From Aeromicrobium sp. (lineage in GTDB: Bacteria; Actinomycetota; Actinomycetes; Propionibacteriales; Nocardioidaceae): 38,335 bases of DNA. The DNA lies in contig NZ_JACMOM010000249.1 in NCBI RefSeq assembly GCF_014378035.1, forward strand, positions 1 to 38,335. The letters are read 5' to 3'. This document shows, one piece after another, positions 4,150 to 38,126 of this stretch; position 1 is the stretch's first letter; each line of letters begins with the position of its first letter. A program made the translations under genes and the position numbers. The notes under the pieces were generated by a model. That model saw only the letters and a list, made by a program, of their open reading frames with translations. It was not told where the DNA came from and made no database searches.

Positions 4150-5382
4150 TCACAGCAGGCTGGTGGACAGGCGACGTCCCGACAGCACCAGAGCGATGAC
4201 CGGCACCGTGAGCACGGCAGCAGCAGCATTGAGGGTGCCGAACCCGCTGGCCGCGACGACGACTCCCGCGAGCAGGCCACCCATGGCGCCGGCGAGATTC
4301 ATCGTCAGGTCCGAGAAGCCCTGCACGACCGGCCGGACGTCGTGGTTCAACGAGGCAGTGAGCATGGCGGCGCCCGCGATGACCGAGGCCGACCAGCCGA
4401 TGCCCAGCAGCGTCAGGCCGATCGTGATCTGCAGGTCGGAATCGCCCGACGTACCGGCCACCAGGACGGCGAGCAGCAGGATGGACTGTCCGAGCAGGAT
4501 GGTGCGATCGGAGCCCCAGGCGTCGCTGAGCCAGCCCATGACTGGGGAGAGGGCGAACATCCCGGCGATGTGCAGGCTGATGGTCAACCCGATCAGCTCG
4601 AGCGCCGCGCCGTGGTCCTGCATGTGCACCGGGGTGAGCGTCATGACCGAGACCATGACGGCGTGGGATGACGCGATGGCGTAGACCGCGGTCAGCGTGC
4701 ACCCGCGCATGTGTGGCAGAGCGGCCCGGATGCCACGAGCCCTCGGAGCCGCACCGGCGACGCGAACGAGGGGGTCGGGTCGGAGGAGGGCGAACGTCAG
4801 CACTCCGGCGATGCCGAAGCCTGCCGCGGAGAACATCATTGGTCCGGCGAGGTCGGGCACTCCGACCGTTCGGGCGAACGAGGCACCCGGGCCGGTGAGG
4901 TTGGGGCCGATCACCGCACCGATCGTGGTGGACCAGACCACGAGCGAGAGGGCGCGGCCGATCTGTCGGGGATCAGCTCTGTCGACGGCCGCGAACCGTG
5001 ACTGCAGGTTGGCGGCAGTGCTGGCGCCGAACAGCAGCAGACCGAGAAGGATGATCGTGAGGGACTCGGTGTCGGCCCCCACCACCGTCACGGCGGCGCC
5101 TGCCGCGCCACTGAGCCAGCCGAGTGTCAACGCGGGTCGGCGGCCGGCGCGTGCAGCGAGGGACGACAGCGGGATCGTGAACACCGCCGCACCGAGCGTA
5201 AGCATGACCACGGCCATGCCGGCCCACCCCGAGGAGCCGGTGACGTCCTTGATCAACAGCGAGCCGACCGCGATGCCGGCGCCGTTGCCGATGCCACCGA
5301 CGACCTGGACGAGCGCGAGGACCATCACGACACGACGCTGGACAGACCCGCCGATGGCGACGGGGGTGGAGATCTCGGTCAC
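4150..5382 (-). CDS. MFS transporter
   Basis: This 410-residue protein has a pattern of about twelve hydrophobic helices with a central cytoplasmic loop (ALLRPDPLVRVAGAAPRARG). The loop after the second helix carries SLAARAGRRPALTLG, a variant of the MFS signature between helices 2 and 3. The GTG start is supported by TAGATT (5394-5389 on the minus strand) exactly 6 nt upstream, which suggests a leaderless message. It follows the M13 peptidase gene by 17 bp, so it may also be reached by read-through. It converges on the HTTM gene with only 19 bp between stops. Substrate is unknown; drug or metabolite export is possible. Confidence 0.85.
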   Translation of the reverse strand: MTEISTPVAIGGSVQRRVVMVLALVQVVGGIGNGAGIAVGSLLIKDVTGSSGWAGMAVVMLTLGAAVFTIPLSSLAARAGRRPALTLGWLSGAAGAAVTVVGADTESLTIILLGLLLFGASTAANLQSRFAAVDRADPRQIGRALSLVVWSTTIGAVIGPNLTGPGASFARTVGVPDLAGPMMFSAAGFGIAGVLTFALLRPDPLVRVAGAAPRARGIRAALPHMRGCTLTAVYAIASSHAVMVSVMTLTPVHMQDHGAALELIGLTISLHIAGMFALSPVMGWLSDAWGSDRTILLGQSILLLAVLVAGTSGDSDLQITIGLTLLGIGWSASVIAGAAMLTASLNHDVRPVVQGFSDLTMNLAGAMGGLLAGVVVAASGFGTLNAAAAVLTVPVIALVLSGRRLSTSLL

Positions 5383-5388
5383 CCGAGC

Positions 5389-5394
5389 AATCTA
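5389..5394 (-). promoter_or_regulatory. -10 box for leaderless MFS transporter gene
   Basis: TAGATT on the minus strand lies 6 nt before the GTG at 5382, the usual spacing for an actinobacterial transcript that begins at its start codon. It lies just past the TAG stop of the M13 gene. Confidence 0.5.
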
Positions 5395-5399
5395 CCGAA

Positions 5400-7358
5400 C
5401 TACCAGATGGAGACCCGGTCGGCCGGATCGAGCCACAGGGCATCGTCCGTGCCGACCGAGAACGCCTCGTAGAAGGCGTCGATGTTGCGCACGACCTGGT
5501 TGCAGCGGAACTCCGGCGGGGAGTGCGGGTCGACCGTGAGGCGGCGTACCGTCTCGGCGGGGCGCACCTTGCCCTGCCAGGCCTGCGCCCACGAGACGAA
5601 GAAGCGCTGGTCAGGGGTCAGGTCGTCGATCGATGTCGCCTCGGGCTCGGTGAGGCGGAACGCCCGGTAGGCAATGCCGAGCCCCCCGAGGTCGCCGATG
5701 TTCTCGCCGATCGTCAGGGAGCCGTTGACGGTGCGGTCGTCTGCGCCGTCAGGGGAGAGGGTGTCGTACTGCGCGACGAGCGCCGAGGTGAGCTTTTCGA
5801 AGGAGTCGCGGTCGTCGTCGGTCCACCAGTTGCTGAGGGCACCGGTTCCGTCGTACTGCGAGCCCTGGTCGTCGAAGCCGTGGCCGATCTCGTGGCCGAT
5901 GACAGCTCCGATCGCCCCGTAGTTGACGGCATCGTCGGCGTCGGCGTGGAAGAACGGAGGCTGCAGAATTGCCGCGGGGAACACGATCTCGTTCATCGTC
6001 GGGTTGTAGTAGGCGTTGACGGTCTGCGGCGTCATGTACCACTCGTCGCGGTCGATGGGTGCGCCGATCTTGGCCAGCTCGCGATCGGTGGCGACGGCCA
6101 AGGCGCGCCGGGCGTTGCCCAGCAGGTCGTCGGGGGCGGTCTCGAGCGCGCTGTAGTCGCGGAAGGTCTCGGGGTGGCCGATCTTGGGGTTGAAGGTGTC
6201 GAGCTTGTCGTGCGCCCGCTTCTTGGTCTCGTCGCTCATCCAGGGCAGGGCGGAGATGCTCTCGCGGTAGGCCTCGAGCAGGTTGCCGATGAGCTCACCC
6301 ATGCGCTCCTTCGAGGCGGGCGGGAACTCGGTGCGGACGTAGATCTGGCCGACTGCCTCGCCCATCGCACCCTCGACGAAGCCGACGCCACGCTTCCAAC
6401 GCGGACGGAGCTCGTCGGTGCCGCTGAGGGTGCGGCCGTAGAACTCGAAGCTGGCGTTGACGAACGGCGAGGAGAGGTAGGGCGAGGCGCTGTGCACAAC
6501 TTGCCAGCGCAGCCAGTCCTTCCAGGCGTCGAGCTCGCCGGGCGAGTCCTGCGCGGCGACGAGCAGAGTCTGGAGTCCTTCGAGGAACGAGGGCTGCGAC
6601 ACGACGACGTCGGCCAGGACCGGCGCCGGCACCCGGGCGCCGCTGGACCACGACGTCCAGTCGAACGCCGGGAGAAGCGCTCGGAGCCCGTCGATCGTGA
6701 GGGGGTTGTAGGTCTTCTGCGCATCACGGCAGGCGACCCGGTCCCAGTGGAACGTGGCGATGCGCGTCTCGAGGTCCATGATGCGTTGCGCCCGACCCGC
6801 GGCGGCGTCGAGGCCGGCGAGCCCCAGCATCGTGGTGATGTGGTCGACGTAGGCCTTGCGGATCGTGGCGGACTCGTCGTCGCGGTAGTAGGACTCGTCG
6901 GGCAGCCCGATGCCCCCCTGGCTGAGGTGGGTGACGTAGCGGTCGGGGTTGCCGCGGTCGGGAGCGATGTACATGCCGAAGATGCTGCCGACGCCCTGGC
7001 GGTCGAGGATGCCGAGAGTCTCGACAAGACCGGCGACGTCGGTCACCGCGTCGACCAGTGCGAGCTCGGTCTCGAGCGGCTGCGCACCGAGGGCCTCGAT
7101 GCGGTCCTCGTCCATGAAGCTCGCGTAGAGGTCAGCGATCTTGCGCTGCTCGTCGTCGTCGGGGGACTGCCCGGCGGACTCGATGATCTCGCGCACCTTG
7201 GCCTCGGCCTCGTCGACGAGGACGACGAAAGAGCCGGCTGTGGCTCGGTCGGGCTTGATCTCGGTCTCACGCAGCCATGGCCCGTTGACGTGCCTGAAGA
7301 GGTCGTCCTGGACGCGGATCGTGGTGTCGAACTGGGTCATGTCGATGCCGTTGGTCAC
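5400..7358 (-). CDS. M13 (neprilysin/PepO-type) zinc metallopeptidase
   Basis: This 652-residue enzyme has the full M13 layout: an N-terminal alpha-helical domain beginning QDDLFRHVNGPWL, then the catalytic domain. The zinc site HEIGH has its ligands at H489 and H493 and catalytic E490, and GENIGDLGG supplies the third ligand, E552. Upstream NAYYNPTMNEIVFPA is the conserved substrate-binding strand. The C-terminal motif VRNIDAFYEAF and a final tryptophan (SIW) match family members. There is no signal peptide or membrane anchor, so it is likely a cytoplasmic oligopeptidase. The GTG start at 7358 is favoured over ATG 7340 because TAGCCT lies 6 nt before it. It is divergent from the flavoreductase gene. 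Confidence 0.95.
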   Translation of the reverse strand: MTNGIDMTQFDTTIRVQDDLFRHVNGPWLRETEIKPDRATAGSFVVLVDEAEAKVREIIESAGQSPDDDEQRKIADLYASFMDEDRIEALGAQPLETELALVDAVTDVAGLVETLGILDRQGVGSIFGMYIAPDRGNPDRYVTHLSQGGIGLPDESYYRDDESATIRKAYVDHITTMLGLAGLDAAAGRAQRIMDLETRIATFHWDRVACRDAQKTYNPLTIDGLRALLPAFDWTSWSSGARVPAPVLADVVVSQPSFLEGLQTLLVAAQDSPGELDAWKDWLRWQVVHSASPYLSSPFVNASFEFYGRTLSGTDELRPRWKRGVGFVEGAMGEAVGQIYVRTEFPPASKERMGELIGNLLEAYRESISALPWMSDETKKRAHDKLDTFNPKIGHPETFRDYSALETAPDDLLGNARRALAVATDRELAKIGAPIDRDEWYMTPQTVNAYYNPTMNEIVFPAAILQPPFFHADADDAVNYGAIGAVIGHEIGHGFDDQGSQYDGTGALSNWWTDDDRDSFEKLTSALVAQYDTLSPDGADDRTVNGSLTIGENIGDLGGLGIAYRAFRLTEPEATSIDDLTPDQRFFVSWAQAWQGKVRPAETVRRLTVDPHSPPEFRCNQVVRNIDAFYEAFSVGTDDALWLDPADRVSIW

Positions 7359-8275: not shown

Positions 8276-9700
8276 GTGACTGAACTGCGCAACGTGGCCG
8301 TCATCCTCGCCGGTGGCACCGGGACGAGGGTCGGTATGGCCATCCCCAAACAGCTCATCAAGATCGCCGGCAAGACCATCATCGAGCACACCATCGCCGC
8401 CTTCGAGGCGTCATCGCTCGTCGATGAGATCGTGATCCTCATGGCGCCGGGGCACCTCGACCCCGTGCGGGCCATCGTGCAGAACGGCGGCTACGACAAG
8501 GTGACCCAGATCGTCGAGGGCGGTCAGACGCGCAACGAGTCGACGAGTCGCGCCCTCGAGGCGCTGGGCACGCAGGAGTGCAACGTCCTGTTCCACGACG
8601 CGGTGCGTCCGCTCGTGTCGCAGACCATCATCAGCGACGTCGTGTCGGCCCTGGCCACCCACGAGGCCGTCGACACCGCGATCCCGTCGGCCGACACGAT
8701 CGTGCGGGTCCACGACACGCCCGCCGGGGTCACCGAGACGATCGAGGATGTATTGCCCCGGCACCTCCTGCGGCGGGGGCAGACCCCGCAGGCGTTCCGG
8801 CTGTCCGTGATCCGCGAGGCCTACGGGCTGGCCTGGAAGGACCCGGGGTTCACCGCGACCGACGACTGCACCGTGGTGCTCCGCTATCTGCCAGAGGTGC
8901 CGATTGCCGTGGTGCCGGGGCACGAGCGCAACATGAAGGTCACCGAGCCGATCGACGTCTACATCGCCGACAAGCTCTTCCAGCTGCACTCCGCCGACAC
9001 CCCCGCGCAGCTCACCGACGAGCAGTACCGCGAGGCGCTCGCCGGCAAGACCATGGTGGTGTTCGGCGGGTCGTACGGCATCGGTGGCGACATCGCCGAC
9101 CTCGCCCGCGGGTTCGGCGCGACGGTTCACTCGTTCTCGCGGTCCTCGACCAACACCCACGTCGACAGACGTCCCGACATCGCGGCCGCGGCGTCGCTGG
9201 TGCTCAAGGAGACCGACACCGTCGACTTCGTGGTCAACACTGCTGGGGTGCTCCCGATCTCCGAGCTGGCCGAGACGTCGGAGGAGACCATCTTCGCGGC
9301 GACCGAGATCAACTATCTCGCGCCGATCTTCATCGCGCAGGAGTTCTACCCGCACCTGGCGGCGTCGGGTGGCTCGCTGCTGCTGTTCACGTCGTCGTCC
9401 TACACCCGCGGTCGCAAGGGCTACTCGTTGTACTCCTCCGCGAAGGCTGCGGTGGTGAACCTGACCCAGGCGCTCGCCGACGAGTGGTCGGGCGAGGTGC
9501 GGGTCAACTGCGTCAACCCCGAGCGCACCAGCACCCCGATGCGCACCAAGGCGTTCGGCGAGGAGCCCGACGGCACGCTCCTCAGCTCGATGGAGGTCGC
9601 CCGGCAGTCGCTCGACGTCCTGCTCGCCAACCAGACCGGGCACATCATCGACATCCGTCGTGAGGGCGGCCCGGCTGCCACGGGTGGCGGGTCGTCGTGA
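8276..9700 (+). CDS. Bifunctional cytidylyltransferase / SDR reductase (CDP-ribitol synthesis, Bcs1/TarIJ-like)
   Basis: This 474-residue protein is a two-domain fusion. Residues 1-235 are an IspD/TarI-type cytidylyltransferase (AVILAGGTGTRVGMAIPKQ, FHDAVRPLVS, RRGQTPQAFR). Residues 255-470 are a short-chain dehydrogenase with the cofactor loop GGSYGIGGD (from 264) and catalytic YSSAK (Y386, K390). The Haemophilus influenzae capsule enzyme Acs1/Bcs1 has this same domain order. It reduces ribulose-5-phosphate and activates the product as CDP-ribitol, so CDP-ribitol is the expected product. A plain IspD role in isoprenoid synthesis is less likely because of the fusion and the glycopolymer context. 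It overlaps the next gene by GTGA. Confidence 0.85.
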   Translation: MTELRNVAVILAGGTGTRVGMAIPKQLIKIAGKTIIEHTIAAFEASSLVDEIVILMAPGHLDPVRAIVQNGGYDKVTQIVEGGQTRNESTSRALEALGTQECNVLFHDAVRPLVSQTIISDVVSALATHEAVDTAIPSADTIVRVHDTPAGVTETIEDVLPRHLLRRGQTPQAFRLSVIREAYGLAWKDPGFTATDDCTVVLRYLPEVPIAVVPGHERNMKVTEPIDVYIADKLFQLHSADTPAQLTDEQYREALAGKTMVVFGGSYGIGGDIADLARGFGATVHSFSRSSTNTHVDRRPDIAAAASLVLKETDTVDFVVNTAGVLPISELAETSEETIFAATEINYLAPIFIAQEFYPHLAASGGSLLLFTSSSYTRGRKGYSLYSSAKAAVVNLTQALADEWSGEVRVNCVNPERTSTPMRTKAFGEEPDGTLLSSMEVARQSLDVLLANQTGHIIDIRREGGPAATGGGSS

Positions 9701-10062
9701 AGGCCCTCATCAACGTCCTGCTCGTGATCGTGGTGGTGGTGTTCATCGCCGTCGTCGTGTTCCTGATCAGAACCTCGGGGTCCGATGACAAGACGGCGCA
9801 GGCCGAGCCGACGGACAAGCCCATCGTGTACATGGGGACCGGGGGAGTGGTCGACAACATCGAGCGTCGCCTCGAGGCCCGGACGGGACGCGACCTCCGG
9901 ATCAAGTGCCCCGAGAAGGTCGATGAGGCCATCGGCACGACGTTCCGTTGCAGCGTCCGCTACGCGGGTCTTGACGACATCATCTCGAAGGCGGCTGTCA
10001 AGATCGACGGCCCCGGCGGCGAGTTCAGGTGGAAGTCCGAGTCGGTCGTCAAGGCTCCCTGA
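9697..10062 (+). CDS. DUF4333 family single-pass membrane protein
   Basis: This 121-residue protein has one N-terminal membrane helix (residues 3-24, rich in Val and Ile). A small extracytoplasmic domain contains two cysteines in LRIKCPEKV and TTFRCSVRY, which probably form a disulfide. The CP...G..F.C.V pattern is typical of DUF4333 domains, common in actinobacterial envelopes and of unknown function. The GTG start overlaps the stop of the preceding gene (GTGA), so the two are translationally coupled and this protein probably belongs to the glycopolymer pathway. A palindromic element begins 25 bp after its stop. Confidence 0.75.
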   Translation: MKALINVLLVIVVVVFIAVVVFLIRTSGSDDKTAQAEPTDKPIVYMGTGGVVDNIERRLEARTGRDLRIKCPEKVDEAIGTTFRCSVRYAGLDDIISKAAVKIDGPGGEFRWKSESVVKAP

Positions 10063-10087
10063 CCTCCCTCGCCCGCCCCAGCCGTCC

Positions 10088-10152
10088 GCGCTGGCAGTGA
10101 CGCTCTTGTGGCGACACGCCGGTCGTGGCCACAAGAGCGTCACTGCCAGCGG
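10088..10152. repeat. Palindromic repeat element, copy 1
   Basis: The arms at 10089-10112 and 10128-10151 pair perfectly over 24 bp around the 15-nt loop GACACGCCGGTCGTG. A second copy in the same orientation lies at 15110-15175; over a 64-bp core the copies agree at 56 positions. The right arm supplies the stop codon and last residues (LRSRWQ) of the DUF6716 gene on the minus strand. It sits at a convergent gene junction, so it could work as a bidirectional terminator, but it has no T-run and its conserved loop suggests a dispersed REP-like element. Confidence 0.85.
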
Positions 10153-11426
10153 GAGCGCAGGCGGCGGACCGGGACAGTCACGGCGGGTGGGAGGAGAAGG
10201 GCCGCACCGTAAGCGGCTGTGCCGACGAGCGCGCCGTGGCGCCGCACGCGCCGCGACCATGCCCGCGACATCCATCGCGGCGTGTCGTCGACCGTGGCGA
10301 GGCCGAGCTCGAGTGCGCTACGGAAGTAAGGGCTCTCCCACACCTCGTGCGACGGTCGAACCCCAGAAGCCAGGAGGGCCTCGACGCGATCGACGATGGT
10401 CTCGTTCGCTGGTCGGTCACGGCCTCCAAAGTAGCCCCCGTGCCAGTCGGCGTCGGGCGAACCGATGTCGTCATCGATGATCTGGTCGAAGGTGCGCAGC
10501 AGCCCGCTGTCGAGGAAGACGTGGTTTCCGTAGCGTTCGTTCACCCCGAGGTCGAGGACGAGCGCGACCCGGCAGCCGTGGTCGATCGCCTCCAGGCATG
10601 CCGTGGACGACATCGTCAGCAGCAGGTCGACATCGGGCAGTGCCTGCGCGATGGGTGAGTAGTCGATGCGGAAGTTGTCCGGCACGTCCTCGTCTGCCAC
10701 CAGGTCGGCCGGGTGGTGCGCCATCCGGTGGAAGGTGTCCTCGCCAGGCCGGTGCCGGGGCTTGAGGACGACGTCACGGTCAGGATGTGCGCGGGCATAG
10801 GCGATGAGTCGGCGGTAGACGTGACGTCTCTCGACGGGGGAGGCCGGCACGGTGGGTTGGTCGGCGAAGAGCACCGACGTGATGGGGCCGGTGCGCGCGG
10901 GGCTTGGAGTTCCGGACAGGAACGGCAGCCCGCTCAGCACGAGGTTGTCCATCGGCAGCCCGAGCGTTGCCCCGACCGTGCGGAAGTAGGCGAGGTCGTG
11001 CGCGGAGTTGACGGCGACGACATCTGTGCCGGCCCGGTCGAGATACCCCGCGGTGATCTTCTCGATGATGATGCCGACCCACCCCGACACGAGAATCGGC
11101 CCGGGCTCCGGATCGGGCCCGTGTCGTCGTGGCGACGCGAGGGCGACCTCGATCGTGAGCCGTCGCGTCATCGGCCCGGACAGCGCGCAGACCACGACCC
11201 CGGACGCGACCGCCTCGGACACCAGGTCGGGCCACGACACGTAGTGGACGAACTCGAAGCCTGCGTCGTGGATCTGCTCGGTCGACAGTGCCGAACGGGT
11301 GTGGGGCACGACGACGCGGCAGGCGAAACCACGTGCCTCCAGCTCGTCGCGGATCCCGGCGCACCACTTCAGCTGCGAATCGAAGGCGGCGACGAGCAGG
11401 GCGGTCCGTCGGGGAGGAGGTGACAC
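10140..11426 (-). CDS. DUF6716 putative glycosyltransferase (paralogue 1)
   Basis: This 428-residue protein looks like a GT-B glycosyltransferase. The N-terminal half starts with a short strand and helix (TALLVAAFDSQLKW). The C-terminal half has VVLKPRHRPGEDTFH and MSSTACLEAIDHGCRVALV, motifs recalling the nucleotide-binding half of CDP-glycerol and capsule transferases. It matches the protein encoded at 13854-15284 at several points (VPAS..ERR.., ARAHP..-VV.K.R.R.GE, SSTA.LEAI, SGLL.T), so the two are paralogues. They flank the CMP-sugar genes, so CMP-nonulosonate is a plausible donor. This is inference; no acceptor or donor is proven. TACGGT lies 6 nt before the GTG, so the message is probably leaderless. 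The extreme C-terminus comes from the palindromic repeat. Confidence 0.75.
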   Translation of the reverse strand: MSPPPRRTALLVAAFDSQLKWCAGIRDELEARGFACRVVVPHTRSALSTEQIHDAGFEFVHYVSWPDLVSEAVASGVVVCALSGPMTRRLTIEVALASPRRHGPDPEPGPILVSGWVGIIIEKITAGYLDRAGTDVVAVNSAHDLAYFRTVGATLGLPMDNLVLSGLPFLSGTPSPARTGPITSVLFADQPTVPASPVERRHVYRRLIAYARAHPDRDVVLKPRHRPGEDTFHRMAHHPADLVADEDVPDNFRIDYSPIAQALPDVDLLLTMSSTACLEAIDHGCRVALVLDLGVNERYGNHVFLDSGLLRTFDQIIDDDIGSPDADWHGGYFGGRDRPANETIVDRVEALLASGVRPSHEVWESPYFRSALELGLATVDDTPRWMSRAWSRRVRRHGALVGTAAYGAALLLPPAVTVPVRRLRSRWQ

Positions 11427-11432
11427 TCGCGC

Positions 11433-11438
11433 ACCGTA
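11433..11438 (-). promoter_or_regulatory. -10 box for leaderless DUF6716 gene
   Basis: TACGGT on the minus strand is followed by 6 nt and then GTG 11426, the leaderless spacing seen repeatedly in this window. Confidence 0.5.
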
Positions 11439-11608
11439 TCTGTCCCAGGGCCGCCCAGCCGGCGAGGAGCGGATCGTTCACGAGCTGTTGGTCGACGGTT
11501 GCGGGGTTGGTCGGTTCCGGTGCGCCCAGCGGCGCGGCAGCCCCGGCAGGACCCGGGACGTTCGTGCCCCCGGGTGCTGGCGTTCATGCCGATGACGTGC
11601 GTCCTTCC

Positions 11609-11651
11609 TAGCGTTCATGGGGAAGTCATCGAGCCTGACCGAGGGAGCGCT
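11609..11651 (+). promoter_or_regulatory. Promoter and ribosome site of the nonulosonate operon
   Basis: In the 225-bp gap between divergent genes I find TAGCGT (11609-11614) as a possible -10. It would give a leader of about 30 nt with the ribosome site GAGGGAG (11641-11647) before GTG 11652. No convincing -35 or operator is visible in the rest of the gap. Confidence 0.4.
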
Positions 11652-12923
11652 GTGAGCCAGGATGTCGTCACCACCGGCACGCCCGTCGTGCTGCCGCGCC
11701 CGGCAGCCGTGTGCGCCGTCATTCCGGCCCGCGGGGGCTCCAAGGGTGTGCGGCGCAAGAATCTCCGTCTCCTCGGGGGCGAGCCGCTGGTGGCGCGCGC
11801 CGTTCAGGCGCTGTTGGCCAGCGACACCGTCGACACGGTCTTCGTGACGACCGACGACAGCGAGATCGCGACGGCCTCCCGTGCCGCAGGGGCTTACGTC
11901 ATCGACAGACCGGCAGAGCTCGCCGGAGATCTCGCGTCCTCGGAGTCTGCTCTGCTGCACGCCCTTGGCGCGATCGCCTCGATGGGTGGGCTGCCGGACG
12001 TGACGGTGTTCGCGCAGGCCACCAGCCCGTTCCTGCGGTCGGCCGACATCGATCGCGCCGTCGCCATGGTCGTCGACGACACGTGCGACGTCGCGTTCAG
12101 CGTCGTGCCGTCGGACGTACATCTGTGGCGGGTCGGCGCCGACGGCCCCGAGGGCGTCAACCACGACGCGCTCGTCAGGCAGCGTCGGCAGGATCGTGCG
12201 CCCGGGTGGACGGAGACGGGAGCGTTCTACGCCATGCGTACGAGCGGCTTCATGGAGCACGGGCACAGGTTCTTCGGTCGGCTGCGGCTCGTCGACGTCG
12301 ACCCGTCCGGGGCGCTCGAGATCGACACTGAGCACGACCTGCGACTTGCCGAGCTGATGCAGGCCCACCGGCTATGGGACGTCGACCGGACCACGGCGTC
12401 GGGCGGGACGCCGTCGCCGATCGACGCTCGCGCCGTCGTGACTGATTTCGACGGCGTGCACACCGACGACCGGGTCATCGTCGACCAGCACGGCATCGAG
12501 TCCGTCATGGTCAACCGGTCCGACGGCATGGGCGTCGCCCAGCTGCGTCGCGCTGGCATCCCCTTCTTGATCCTGTCGACCGAGACCAACGCCGTGGTGC
12601 GCGCCCGCGCCGCCAAGCTGGGGGTCGACGTCGTGGACGGCTGCGCCGACAAGCTCGCGGCGCTCATCGAGTGGGCCCGGGAGAAGGACGTGTTGCTGCG
12701 TGACATCGCCTACCTCGGCAACGACGTCAACGACGTCGCCTGCCTCCGGGCCGTCGGTTGGCCCGTGGCCGTTGCCGGCGCCCATCCCGATGCTCACAGG
12801 GCATCCACGATCGTGCTTCGCCGCCACGGTGGCGACGGAGCCGTCCGCGAGCTCGCTGACCGCGTGCTCGCCGGGTTCGACGCACGAGTGACCACTCCGC
12901 CACGACGAAAGGCACGACCATGA
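11652..12923 (+). CDS. Acylneuraminate-type cytidylyltransferase fused to HAD phosphatase
   Basis: This 423-residue protein has an N-terminal CMP-sugar synthetase domain (VIPARGGSKGVRRKN from about residue 23, QATSPFLRSADID, TGAFYAMR). Residues from about 260 form a KdsC-like HAD phosphatase with all four motifs: DFDG (D265, D267), LSTETN, the lysine in CADKLAAL, and GNDVND from 356. Vertebrate CMP-sialate synthetases also carry an HAD domain. Here the catalytic residues look intact, so one protein could both dephosphorylate a nonulosonate-9-phosphate and activate it with CTP. GTG 11652 is chosen for its ribosome site and because homology begins soon after; ATG 11586 is an in-frame alternative. 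It overlaps the synthase gene by ATGA. Confidence 0.85.
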   Translation: MSQDVVTTGTPVVLPRPAAVCAVIPARGGSKGVRRKNLRLLGGEPLVARAVQALLASDTVDTVFVTTDDSEIATASRAAGAYVIDRPAELAGDLASSESALLHALGAIASMGGLPDVTVFAQATSPFLRSADIDRAVAMVVDDTCDVAFSVVPSDVHLWRVGADGPEGVNHDALVRQRRQDRAPGWTETGAFYAMRTSGFMEHGHRFFGRLRLVDVDPSGALEIDTEHDLRLAELMQAHRLWDVDRTTASGGTPSPIDARAVVTDFDGVHTDDRVIVDQHGIESVMVNRSDGMGVAQLRRAGIPFLILSTETNAVVRARAAKLGVDVVDGCADKLAALIEWAREKDVLLRDIAYLGNDVNDVACLRAVGWPVAVAGAHPDAHRASTIVLRRHGGDGAVRELADRVLAGFDARVTTPPRRKARP

Positions 12924-13813
12924 GCAAATGGGTACAGATCGGCGACGAGATCGTTGGAGCAGGGCGTCCCACGTACGTCATCGGTGAGATCGGCATCAAC
13001 CACAACGGCGACGTCGCCGTGGCCAAGAAGCTCATCGACGTGGCTGCCCTGGCGGGCGCACAGGCAGTCAAGTTCCAGAAGCGGACGCCGGCGATCTCGA
13101 CGCCGTCGGACATGAAGAACACCCGTCGCGAGACGCCATGGGGGGAGATGAGCTATCTCGAGTACCGCTACAAGGTGGAGCTCGAGCGTGAGCAGTACGC
13201 CGAGATCGCTGCCCACGCGCTGACGCAGGGCGTCGACTGGTTCGCGTCGCCGTGGGACGTGCCGTCGGTGGAGTTCCTGGAGGAGATGGGCGTCTCGACG
13301 CACAAGGTCGCCTCGGCCTCCGTCACTGACATCCCGCTCCTGCGGGCGATGGCCGCGACGGGCAAGCCGATCATCCTCTCGACGGGGATGAGCACGATCG
13401 AGCAGATCGACCGTGCCATCGAGGTGCACGGAACGAACAACCTGGTGATCCTGCACGCGACCTCGACCTATCCGCTCCCTCCCGAGGAGGCCAACCTGCA
13501 CATGATCCCGGTGCTCTCCGCCCGCTACCGCGTGCCGGTCGGATACTCGGGTCACGAACGGGGTCTGCAGATCTCGGTCGCCGCGGTGACCCTCGGGGCG
13601 ACTGCGGTCGAGCGCCACATCACCCTCGACCGGTCGATGTGGGGGTCCGACCAGGCAGCGAGCCTCGAGCCGCACGGCTTCATGAGCCTCGTGCGCGACA
13701 TCCGGGTCATCGAGAAGGCCTTGGGTGACGGCGTCAAGCGGGTCATGCCGGGCGAGTTCGCCCAGATGAAGCGGCTGCGCCGCGAGCCCGACAGCACGGT
13801 GCTGTCGCTGTGA
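12920..13813 (+). CDS. NeuB-type nonulosonate synthase lacking the SAF domain
   Basis: This 297-residue TIM-barrel enzyme carries the NeuB motifs GEIGINHNGD (22-31), VKFQKR (50-55), ASPWDVPSVEFL, the conserved HATSTYPLPPEE and the metal-site region VGYSGHERG. NeuB enzymes condense PEP with a six-carbon sugar (ManNAc, ManNAc-6-P, Man-6-P or bacillosamine-derived sugars) into a nine-carbon acid. Typical members are about 340-350 residues and end in an SAF (antifreeze-like) domain that covers the neighbouring active site. Here the protein stops right after the barrel, at MKRLRREPDSTVLSL. The start overlaps the preceding stop (ATGA), with AAAGG upstream. The sugar made cannot be told from sequence; Kdn, Neu5Ac and others are possible. 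Confidence 0.88.
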   Translation: MSKWVQIGDEIVGAGRPTYVIGEIGINHNGDVAVAKKLIDVAALAGAQAVKFQKRTPAISTPSDMKNTRRETPWGEMSYLEYRYKVELEREQYAEIAAHALTQGVDWFASPWDVPSVEFLEEMGVSTHKVASASVTDIPLLRAMAATGKPIILSTGMSTIEQIDRAIEVHGTNNLVILHATSTYPLPPEEANLHMIPVLSARYRVPVGYSGHERGLQISVAAVTLGATAVERHITLDRSMWGSDQAASLEPHGFMSLVRDIRVIEKALGDGVKRVMPGEFAQMKRLRREPDSTVLSL

Positions 13814-13830
13814 GCTGGCGCAGGAGGGGG

Positions 13831-13857
13831 ATGGGAATGTCGGGAGCCGCGAGGTGA
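13831..13857 (+). CDS. Possible 8-codon leader peptide coupling the synthase and DUF6716 genes
   Basis: The strongest ribosome site in this gap, AGGAGGGGG (13822-13830), does not serve the DUF6716 start. It directly precedes ATG 13831, which opens MGMSGAAR and stops at TGA 13855-13857. That stop overlaps GTG 13854 as GTGA. Ribosomes ending the peptide could restart on the DUF6716 gene. The spacing from the purine run to ATG is short, so actual use is uncertain. Confidence 0.35.
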   Translation: MGMSGAAR

Positions 13858-15109
13858 CCGAGACCCCCAGGGTGCTGCTGGTCACCGACTCGGACTCCTA
13901 CGTCAAGTGGGGTGCGGCCTTGGCCAACCAGCTCCCAAAGGACTGGACGGTTCACCTCGTGCTTGCGCGCGGGAATGCCGAGCCGAGCCCGAGGCAGCTG
14001 TCCGAGGCGCTCGACGGGACGCGCTTCGACGCCGACGGGGTTCCGCGTGTCGGGCTGCGGCAGCTGCGTTCCCTGCTCGACGAGTGGCGGCCGGACGTGT
14101 TGGTCGCCGCCACCCGCGGGCCGGCCGTGCAGGCGATGGTCAGCCTGATCCCCAACGCCTCGGATCGGCCGGTGGTGGTCAGCGGGTTGGCGGGCATCTC
14201 GGTGCCCGTCATCGGGTACGGGCTCGGGTTCCGTCGCGCCGTCGACGTCTTCGTGGTGCACAGCAGGCGCGAGCTGCGGGAGTTCGCGCAGGCGAGCATC
14301 GAGCGTGGCATCCCCCACACATACGGGCTGGCGACCCTGCCGTTCCTTGCGTCGGCGCCGCGGCCTGCCGAGCCTGACTCGATGCGCAGCGTCATGGTGG
14401 AGGTGCCGGTCCGCAACCGCATCGTGTTCGCAGGTCAGGCCATGGTCCCGGCTTCCCGGCGTGAACGCCTCTGGCTGCTGCGTCAGCTGATCGAGACGGC
14501 TCGTGCCCACCCGGCGCTCGAGGTCGTCATCAAGGTGCGCGCCCGCGAGGGTGAGCCGCAGACCCATGTGGAGCACTACTCGTACGAACGACTTCTGGTC
14601 GGCCTGTTGTCGGCGGGCGAGCACATCCCTGCCAACCTCGTCGTCGAGAGCGGAGCGATGAGCAGGCACCTCCGGCGCGCAGTGGGGCTCGTGACCGTCA
14701 GCTCCACGGCACTGCTCGAGGCGATCGATGAGGGCATCCCGGCCCTCGCGCTCACCGACTTCGGCGTCGGTGCCGACCAGATCAACATCGTGCTGATGGG
14801 CAGCGGGCTGCTGGGCACCGCGCGCGACCTGGTGGACGCCGAGTTCCGTCACCCCGAGCCGTCTTGGCTGGACGACAACTACTTCCACGACTCGTCGGCC
14901 AACTCCTGGCTCGCCCGCGTGGAGGGCCTGCTGGCACTGCGGAGAACGACCGGGATGCCGGCCTACCCCGAGCTGAAAAACACCTCGATGAACCGTGTGC
15001 GCGCCATGCTCTTGCGCAAATTCGCCTTCGTCCCAGAGCAGGGAACCCGACGCGAGGTCGTGGAGTCACGGCTGCTGGCGGTGGGCCTGTGGGTCAATCG
15101 TCACCGTGG

Positions 15110-15175
15110 CGCGCTGGGAGTGACGTTCTTGAGGCGACGCGCCGGTTATGGCCGCAAGAGCGTCACTCCCAGCGC
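15110..15175. repeat. Palindromic repeat element, copy 2
   Basis: The arms 15111-15135 and 15151-15175 pair over 25 positions, with one G-T wobble and one mismatch, around the 15-nt loop GACGCGCCGGTTATG. Relative to copy 1, the C-G pair in the arm (GGCAG/CTGCC) is changed to G-C (GGGAG/CTCCC), a compensatory change that keeps the stem. It has the same orientation as copy 1 and again lies where two genes converge. It is translated as part of the DUF6716 frame. Confidence 0.85.
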
Positions 15176-15189
15176 GGGCGGGACGGAAG

Positions 15190-18561
<3,372 letters not shown>

Positions 18562-36893: not shown

Positions 36894-38126
36894 GTGCCAC
36901 TGACCGAACGACCGCCCGTCCACGTGGAGGGGCGGTCGTTCGGCGTCCCGGCTGTGCCCGAAGCCCGGCCGCTGGGCATCTACGTGCACGTGCCGTTCTG
37001 CTCGGTGCGCTGTGGCTACTGCGACTTCAACACCTACACGGCCGACGAGCTGGGCGAAGGTGCGACGCGGGCCTCGTACGCCGACACCGCGATGCGGGAG
37101 ATCGAGCAGGCGGGTCTGTCGTTGGCGGGGCGGCCTCCTGCGGAGACCGTCTTCTTCGGTGGCGGCACTCCCACCCAGCTGCCGTCAGCCGATCTCGTCC
37201 GCATGCTCGACACCGTGCGGAACGCCATCGGGCTGACCGATGACGTCGAGGTCACGACGGAGGCCAACCCGGACAGCGTCACGCCCGACTCGCTGGCGAC
37301 GCTGCGGGCGGGCGGCTTCACCCGCATCTCGTTCGGCGTGCAGTCGGCCGTGCCGCACGTGCTGGCGACCCTCGACCGGACGCATGACCCGGCGGGCGTG
37401 CCGCAGGCCGTCCGATGGGCTCGGGAAGCCGGCTACGAGCAGGTCAGCGTCGACCTGATCTACGGCACGCCGGGGGAGTCGATGATCGACTGGCAGACCA
37501 GCATCGACCAGGCCATCGAGCTGCAACCCGACCACATCAGTGCCTACGCCCTCATCGTCGAGCAGGGCACGGCCTTCGCCCGCAAGGTCAGGCGCGGCGA
37601 GGTCGTCATGCCCGACGACGACGAGACTGCCGACAAGTACGTGCTGGCCGACGACACCTTCTCGCGGGCGGGACTGCATTGGTACGAGCTGTCGAACTGG
37701 GCGCGCGACGAGGCGGCGCAGTGCCGGCACAACGTCCTCTACTGGCGAAGTGCCGACTGGTGGGGAGTTGGCCCGGGAGCACATTCACACGTACGTCGTG
37801 AGTCTGATTCCGTTGAGTCAGCGGGGGTTGCGGAGCGCTGGTGGAACGTCAAGCACCCGGCCGCCTACGCGCAACGCCTCGCGGCCGGCGAGTCGCCACG
37901 GCACGACGGCGAGACCATCGACGCCGCCACGGCGACTGTCGAGCGCATCATGCTCCAGACGCGCCTGCGTGCGGGCCTCGATCGCGACGCTCTGAGTGAC
38001 GTGGCGAGCGCGGCTGTGCCGGGGCTCGTCGCCCGTGGGCTGATTGACGAGGTGGCCGACCGGCTGGTGCTGACGCAGGCTGGGCGCCTGCTGGCGGACG
38101 CCGTCGTGCGCGAGCTGACCGACTGA
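36894..38126 (+). CDS. hemW: Radical SAM heme chaperone HemW
   Basis: This 410-residue protein is a radical SAM enzyme of the HemN/HemW family. The iron-sulfur cluster cysteines are C36, C40 and C43 in FCSVRCGYCDF, followed by FFGGGTPTQLP and TTEANPDSVT, then ISFGVQSAVPHVLATLDRTH. It has the HNxxYW element (RHNVLYWRSADWWGVGPGAHS) linked to heme binding in HemW. True oxygen-independent coproporphyrinogen dehydrogenases have extra N-terminal residues that are missing here, so a heme chaperone role is preferred. The gene is adjacent to a DUF3097 gene, as in many actinobacteria. Confidence 0.94.
   Translation: MPLTERPPVHVEGRSFGVPAVPEARPLGIYVHVPFCSVRCGYCDFNTYTADELGEGATRASYADTAMREIEQAGLSLAGRPPAETVFFGGGTPTQLPSADLVRMLDTVRNAIGLTDDVEVTTEANPDSVTPDSLATLRAGGFTRISFGVQSAVPHVLATLDRTHDPAGVPQAVRWAREAGYEQVSVDLIYGTPGESMIDWQTSIDQAIELQPDHISAYALIVEQGTAFARKVRRGEVVMPDDDETADKYVLADDTFSRAGLHWYELSNWARDEAAQCRHNVLYWRSADWWGVGPGAHSHVRRESDSVESAGVAERWWNVKHPAAYAQRLAAGESPRHDGETIDAATATVERIMLQTRLRAGLDRDALSDVASAAVPGLVARGLIDEVADRLVLTQAGRLLADAVVRELTD

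Follow-up and report, generated by a model that had tools for sequence, protein, structure and literature searches.

The 38,335-nt contig NZ_JACMOM010000249.1 of Aeromicrobium sp. (assembly GCF_014378035.1; hereafter the window) carries four predicted nonulosonate genes between two copies of a palindromic element. These genes encode a DUF6716 protein (DUF6716a), a synthetase-HAD fusion, a NeuB-family synthase and a second DUF6716 protein (DUF6716b). The original prediction read the arrangement as a cassette in a wall-polymer locus, gained or lost by recombination between the palindromes. Comparison across 49 genomes of the genus showed that the four genes are indeed an exchangeable unit, with filled and empty sites, but that the palindromes do not mark it; they are neither boundary nor vehicle of the block and occur independently of it. 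Two independent things probably meet at this locus, namely an exchangeable sugar module and a family of gene-end hairpins that resemble repetitive extragenic palindromes (REPs).

Independence of the palindromes from the block

The two copies form a 71-nt repeat, 86% identical, on the same strand at 10087-10157 and 15110-15180. The best-matched core of the palindrome is 63 bp long (10089-10151 in copy 1; 15112-15174 in copy 2, where the stem extends to 15110-15176), within one base of the 64 bp first given. Copy 1 was oriented (+) by its loop sequence, GCGACACGCCG, and since an asymmetric loop, GCGAC(A/G)CGCCG, lies on the + strand in both copies, the claim that they share one orientation holds. 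Scored with R1, a covariance model built from 18 copies that include these two, copy 1 and copy 2 reached 90.3 and 87.7 bits. Folded as + strand RNA they gave -60.4 and -53.9 kcal/mol (z -9.6 and -8.3), the - strand RNAs gave z -10.1 and -7.8, and in each of the four cases none of 200 shuffles matched the stability of the fold.

The coordinates confirm that the palindromes stand at the 3′ ends of the outer block genes. The copies also bracket the block, although not exactly as had been stated, because both outer reading frames enter the elements. The stop codon of DUF6716a (10140-10142) is inside copy 1, where the element's own TGA serves as the stop codon and so produces a 12-bp overlap. The frame of DUF6716b (13854-15284) continues through copy 2 into the next gene, with 95 bp of overlap. 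Ten aligned relatives resemble it only up to about residue 419, at the start of the element, so copy 2 appears to have inserted at the original 3′ end of the gene or to have taken its place; the run-through adds ~57 residues that are unmatched in these relatives. Both copies are at convergent junctions, of which our gene calls give four in the window. A pair of elements 5 kb apart is unsurprising by itself, because random placement of 26-28 places in 4.23 Mb yields at least one pair within 5.1 kb in 55-61% of trials. Three such pairs are present (contigs C87, C2, and C128), an outcome reached by 4-6% of random placements, which is a slight hint that the places in this genome are clustered.

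By a NeuB match of at least 75% identity, 18 of the 49 genus genomes carry the block, and the other three block genes stand beside NeuB in all 18 (in G151 a contig end truncates the first block gene). The genus was searched with R1 at E ≤ 0.01, under stricter filters and with at most 93 candidates scored per genome, a depth at which few or no matches do not prove that the element is absent. R1 matched 33 of the 49 genomes: 12 of the 18 block carriers and 21 of the remaining 31 (which include G106, whose only NeuB match is 32% identical). These counts, together with the bare edges of other blocks, show that the element is independent of the block. No R1 match was found in block-bearing G048, G080, G097, G103, G142, and G151 at this threshold and depth; G142 has a weak match at E 0.39. 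Likewise, no element match above 35 bits was found at the block edges of the 17 other block loci, one of which (L033) is on a contig that ends inside the first block gene, leaving that edge unseen. G140 has two weak R1 matches after DUF6716b (33.2 and 27.0 bits), with the loop decamer of the family, CGACACGCCG, in common on a different stem; these hairpins (L031:11753-11838 and L031:12253-12333) flank a 103-aa open reading frame (ORF) directly after DUF6716b.

Gain or loss of a cassette through recombination between the palindromes would be consistent with the direct repeats, 86% identical over 71 nt, that bracket the block, and with the scattered presence of the block over a tree of the flanking genes. 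The arrangement that removal of the block should leave also exists: G144 has the left-flanking IspD-SDR gene, a small ORF and the right-flanking Glyphos_transf gene in succession, and in G136 IspD-SDR is beside Glyphos_transf. Against this account, no element was found at either of these block-less junctions, nor at the edges of the 17 other block loci at the cut-off given above, and in four relatives the block edges adjoin another gene pair and lack palindromes. A single element without the block, the expected excision product, was not seen among the genus genomes compared. Filled and empty sites were also compared at base level, and in the four genomes tested no exact direct repeat longer than 9-10 nt joined the block edges. 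Moreover, homologous recombination works poorly on repeats as short and imperfect as this one. Taken as a whole, recombination between the palindromes is a very improbable route. The original prediction had named two outcomes that would speak against it. The first, presence of the four genes in all relatives while the palindromes are absent, was seen in part, in that relatives do carry the block without palindromes but the block is not in all of them. The second, an element at most convergent junctions, was not observed, as few junctions carry one.

Distribution of the block across Aeromicrobium

The comparison supports the four genes as a presence/absence module among wall teichoic acid-type genes. 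IspD-SDR and Glyphos_transf enclose the block in seven of the 18 carriers, the window included. G145, G142, G128, and G103 have it between LRV_2 and PAP2 genes, which are directly adjacent, with a clean junction, in G132, G126, and G063. The block of G118 is at another locus. The two flanks, IspD-SDR and Glyphos_transf, are conserved across much of the genus, and the distance between them varies from less than 25 bp (G136, G163, and G147) and ~0.5 kb (G144), through 2.4 kb (G130), 3.7 kb (G126 and G063), 4.7 kb (G132), 5.1-5.5 kb (G048 and the window), 6.3 kb (G109, G112, G115, and G118), and 8-12 kb (G140, G128, G145, G142, and G103), to more than 30 kb (G134, G056, G037, G077, and G088). Ordinary homologous recombination in the flanks that the genomes share would be the simplest route by which the block is kept, lost or exchanged.

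Presence of the block is scattered on the flanking-gene tree, several inner branches of which are weakly supported; as read from the tree without a formal count, about four to five block changes, by either gain or loss, are compatible with it. The trees of the block genes match that of the flanks only partly, with NeuB grouping the G118 copy with G048 and G140, and DUF6716b setting the G118 copy next to the window's. The window's DUF6716b (13854-15108) scored 0.72 to the G118 copy at the other locus and 0.56-0.60 to copies at the same locus, a pattern that hints at gene-level exchange. An extra DUF6716 gene, 43-45% identical to DUF6716b, occurs just upstream of IspD-SDR in G048 (L030:3904-5157) and G140 (L031:3910-5142).

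The window locus lacks the LRV_2 and PAP2 genes and the gene that follows them. In the window's own genome this last gene has its best matches, of 41% and 32% identity, on contig C396 (C396:878-2281 and 4901-6292); an element copy (G000:C396:669-751, equivalent to L161:669-751) is near the end of one of them.

The best named relatives of the NeuB protein are Aeromicrobium contigs, and all 49 genus genomes were presumably within the family sample searched for NeuB. Outside the genus, at least 586 stretches encode NeuB relatives. Among 80 of these, with neighbors counted within the stretch covered, 63 also have matches to a CMP-synthetase and to DUF6716, 15 to the synthetase only, and two to neither; two of the 80 proved to be from Aeromicrobium.

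A dispersed family of gene-end palindromes

A search for further copies, as the original prediction had proposed, found 26 places in the window's own genome beyond the two in the window. The resulting 28 places are probably 26 distinct copies, since two contig-end pairs look like one copy each. A list of 85 copies, mostly the best-scoring by R1, was then drawn from eight genomes. Placement was scored for 78 of these (of the 85, six that were duplicates or lay at a locus edge were set aside, and one more edge copy was removed from the remaining 79). Thirty-seven lie between convergent genes, 37 between tandem genes, and four between divergent genes, compared to 62 convergent, 144 tandem, and 66 divergent in a background of 272 gene pairs (Fisher p 5e-5 and 8e-5). 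Thus 74 of the 78 are in convergent or tandem gaps, and in 59 of these 74 the core is -15 to +25 bp away from a gene 3′ end; the median distance is 10 bp. In 33 of the 37 tandem pairs the element is closer to the upstream stop, and four copies show the exact 12-bp overlap with a gene end.

Paired changes in the two arms argue for a maintained stem. Double changes were found in 11 of 25 pairs compared to 6.1 in shuffles (1 of 500 shuffles was as high), and the covariation score was 0.158 versus 0.089 when shuffled (0 of 500 as high) and at most 0.064 with one arm slid. Arm comparisons covered 82 of the 85 copies, three being dropped as duplicates or because a contig end truncates them. When the arms were aligned from both ends, the nearest neighbor by arms was in the same genome for 52.8 of the 82 copies against 13.7 expected; on this realignment, the stems proved lineage-specific rather than strictly genome-specific. 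Among 33 copies of G109, G112, G115, G118, and G144, six groups of orthologous sites were recognized in which the element is kept, and at three of the six the stem has changed in both arms in a coordinated manner. At one orthologous site, G118 and the more distant G144 have one stem and G109 another. In G109, G112, G115, and G118 an element is at the same locus, between patatin-like and beta-propeller genes; in four relatives (L054, L055, L057, and L058) the same locus holds a different set of genes, namely patatin-like, beta-propeller, ECF sigma factor, and PAP2-type genes and the gene after the PAP2-type gene. Copies are thus retained at orthologous sites, with the two arms changing in step. 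Lineage-specific stems, and the replacement of one stem by another at no fewer than one old site, point to copying or conversion among the copies.

The palindromes lie a few bases past stop codons, often between convergent genes, at the points where transcripts arriving from both sides would be expected to end. In a transcript from either direction they are predicted to form a hairpin of at least 20 bp. Such a hairpin would most likely stop transcription without a U-tract or protect the 3′ end of the mRNA, a function predicted here from sequence. An intrinsic terminator with a U-tract does not describe the element, which is a GC-rich hairpin with no T run within 15 bases after the hairpin on either strand of either copy. 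Long GC-rich hairpins right after stop codons, symmetric at convergent junctions, are known from the U-tract-less terminators of Actinobacteria. The element differs from these in that its stem and loop are kept across the family, which terminators do not need. A 3′-end function is ranked first and ongoing mobility second, and the two are compatible.

Several observations weigh against the view of a gene-end hairpin family that is separate from the block. A scan for U-tract terminators, which allows loops of 3-8 nt only, found no site in 9700-15700. Related sequences can exceed a shuffle control without structure, and template-switch correction of imperfect palindromes could match the arms within a site, though not the stems across sites. 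Stems are shared among G109, G112, G118, and G144 (the remaining four genomes differ more), and mean arm identities overlap, at 0.75-0.91 within and 0.63-0.87 between genomes. R1 derives mainly from copies of the window's own genome, the choice of top-ranked copies biases stem comparisons, for G115 the most, and a stem unlike R1 would be missed, as the two G140 hairpins of 33 and 27 bits illustrate. The background gene pairs come from 18 loci near the block, with gene calls made in this analysis, and own-genome copies are placed more loosely (nine convergent, ten tandem, and three divergent among 22 non-edge copies).

The elements could instead be miniature mobile elements, similar to REPs or to miniature inverted-repeat transposable elements, that an enzyme moves or copies in trans and that gene ends merely tolerate. 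This account fits the excess of same-genome nearest neighbors, the G109 stem that is unlike those of G118 and the more distant G144, the stop codons (in the four 12-bp overlaps) or run-on tails supplied by the element, and the lack of an R1 match in some species such as G103 and G142. We nevertheless regard it as rather unlikely. The Y1/RAYT (REP-associated tyrosine transposase) family PF01797 is absent from all 49 genus genomes and was detected in five of 14 control genomes, a blastn search of 50,697 phage and 72,556 plasmid records with copy 1 gave no match at E ≤ 0.01, and six element sites are common to several species. A RAYT-driven REP was set aside for lack of a Y1 transposase in the genus, and carriage of the element by phages or plasmids was rejected on the same blastn result.

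Sites acting at the DNA level, through protein binding, a cruciform or replication, would be in keeping with near-perfect palindromy and with a loop sequence kept in most copies. It would also fit that a contig end is no more than 250 bp away from six of the 28 own-genome places, compared to ~5% expected, although two pairs of these are probably duplicates. The tie to gene 3′ ends and the avoidance of divergent gaps fit a transcribed role better, and we judge a DNA-level role improbable. The six places are on C304, C147, C130, C276, C207, and C49, and elements may break assemblies there. A DNA-uptake-type repeat with many single half-sites was also rejected; the window's four exact half-sites are all inside the two elements.

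For the gene-end hairpin family, the closest known systems found are the GTAG/CGTC REPs. These are described, in the available text of one study, as dispersed palindromes mainly in convergent and co-directional gaps, less than 20 bp from the 3′ ends of convergent genes and often giving the stop codon; some REP families are species-specific, and CGTC REPs also occur without a dedicated transposase (PMC3733652). The location of the element agrees with this description. It differs in its length (a core of 63 bp or longer versus 20-40 bp for REPs in the text consulted; PMC3733652), in the lack of an unpaired GTAG/CGTC tag (inspection of an 18-copy alignment by eye showed variable, C-rich feet, with CGTC inside the stem), in its ~19-nt apical loop with the decamer in most copies, and in the absence of a Y1 transposase from the genus. 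The word Actinobacteria does not occur in the main text of PMC3733652. Rfam returned sub-threshold matches only (mir-34, 34.5 bits against a cut-off of 53.4), and no description of this element was found among the papers listed by literature searches, judged by title and start of abstract. The letters of the decamer appear in PMC3409199, where, in the text available, they belong to a PCR primer.

The decamer itself is present in most copies and absent from the second subfamily of the window's own genome. Exact 11-mer counts summed over ten genomes showed only weak enrichment (153 versus 104 for a reversed control), and its use as a genome-wide marker was set aside. Five of 30 sampled occurrences, three from each of the ten genomes, were in hairpins with a stem score of at least 14: two of three in G109 and in G132, one of three in G083, and none of three in G140. 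In the six genomes without R1 matches none of 18 sampled decamers was in a hairpin of that score, leaving a stem-independent decamer family in such genomes unsupported. At a stem score of at least 12, the proportion was 5 of 16 at genus loci versus 0 of 1174 permuted decamers, and 2 of 34 at 80 named loci versus 4 of 2707. One of the latter two is an Aeromicrobium locus, the same as that of G140, and the sole case from another genus is Microbacterium oleivorans. Of nine loci inspected, four outside Aeromicrobium (L218, L219, L220, and L222) have the decamer on other stems, three of which keep TGACG. Class-wide decamer matches were found with R1, whose consensus contains the decamer, and are not independent evidence. 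The palindromes might represent an undescribed gene-end class of Actinomycetes, with apical CGACACGCCG as the target of a trans-acting factor, lineage-specific stems whose arms change together, and spread or conversion without a RAYT-type enzyme; an orthologous site would then retain its element but swap the stem for that of another subfamily. We hold this as a tentative and somewhat doubtful proposal, made less probable by stems that are lineage-specific rather than strictly genome-specific.

Two shorter, near-perfect hairpins of other sequence were observed in the window, at 2152-2189, just past a gene that ends at 2142, and at 36904-36943, overlapping the start of a gene called at 36924.

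Genes of the block and its predicted product

The left flank of the variable site is an IspD-like cytidylyltransferase fused to an SDR (8276-9700, +; Pfam IspD 5.4e-49, adh_short 4.6e-26). By resemblance it is of the CDP-ribitol type; TIGR00453 and the ribitol-5-P cytidylyltransferase model both matched under their cut-offs. A near full-length match of at least 78% identity is found in 28 of the 49 genus genomes, the window's own included. A small ORF of 121 aa follows (9697-10062, +), with its 3′ end facing element 1 and no Pfam match; its homologs adjoin IspD-SDR in six relatives (G145, G142, G128, G132, G155, and G144).

The block begins with DUF6716a, a putative glycosyltransferase (10140-11426, -; PF20471 5.8e-78). 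The second gene (11652-12923, +) encodes a predicted CMP-nonulosonate synthetase (CTP_transf_3 8e-20) fused to a KDN-9-phosphatase-like HAD domain. It matched NCBIfam NF058599 (KDN-9-P phosphatase, 1.2e-29) and PseF (1.4e-31), both under cut-off, and PDB entries 3mmz (2.7e-42) and 3e81 (5.7e-25). The third gene (12920-13813, +) encodes a short NeuB-family nonulosonate synthase of 297 aa (Pfam NeuB 6e-80; NeuB_NnaB 2.2e-80, under cut-off; PDB 6ncs 5.8e-45), in which no second domain was matched. DUF6716b, also a putative glycosyltransferase (13854-15284, +; PF20471 2.3e-127), completes the block, and the conserved right flank is Glyphos_transf, a CDP-glycerol/ribitol-type phosphotransferase (15190-16440, -; PF04464 8.6e-13). 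A literature search turned up no mention of the name DUF6716.

Family matches therefore cover a Kdn/nonulosonate pathway of NeuB-type synthase, 9-phosphatase and CMP synthetase. No NCBIfam equivalog cut-off was reached, and so the exact sugar is not fixed by these matches. The product is most likely an activated nonulosonic acid, Kdn or a near relative, which would be formed by NeuB condensation, dephosphorylated and CMP-activated by the fused enzyme, and transferred by the DUF6716 proteins. The nearest known polymer found is the Kdn-containing wall teichulosonic acid of Streptomyces, for which the available text of two reports assigns the wall-polymer genes SCO4873-SCO4882 of Streptomyces coelicolor (PMC13011467, PMC11481543). 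The likeness is one of polymer type, an actinobacterial wall glycopolymer with a nonulosonic acid; in Aeromicrobium a four-gene module is placed inside a teichoic acid-type locus.

These results carry the warning that gene-end palindromes can mimic the boundaries of a cassette. The exact filled and empty sites constitute a natural experiment on the turnover of a wall-sugar module at one locus. If the hairpin class is confirmed, the family would offer a system in which REP-like spread and arm matching can be tested without the usual transposase.

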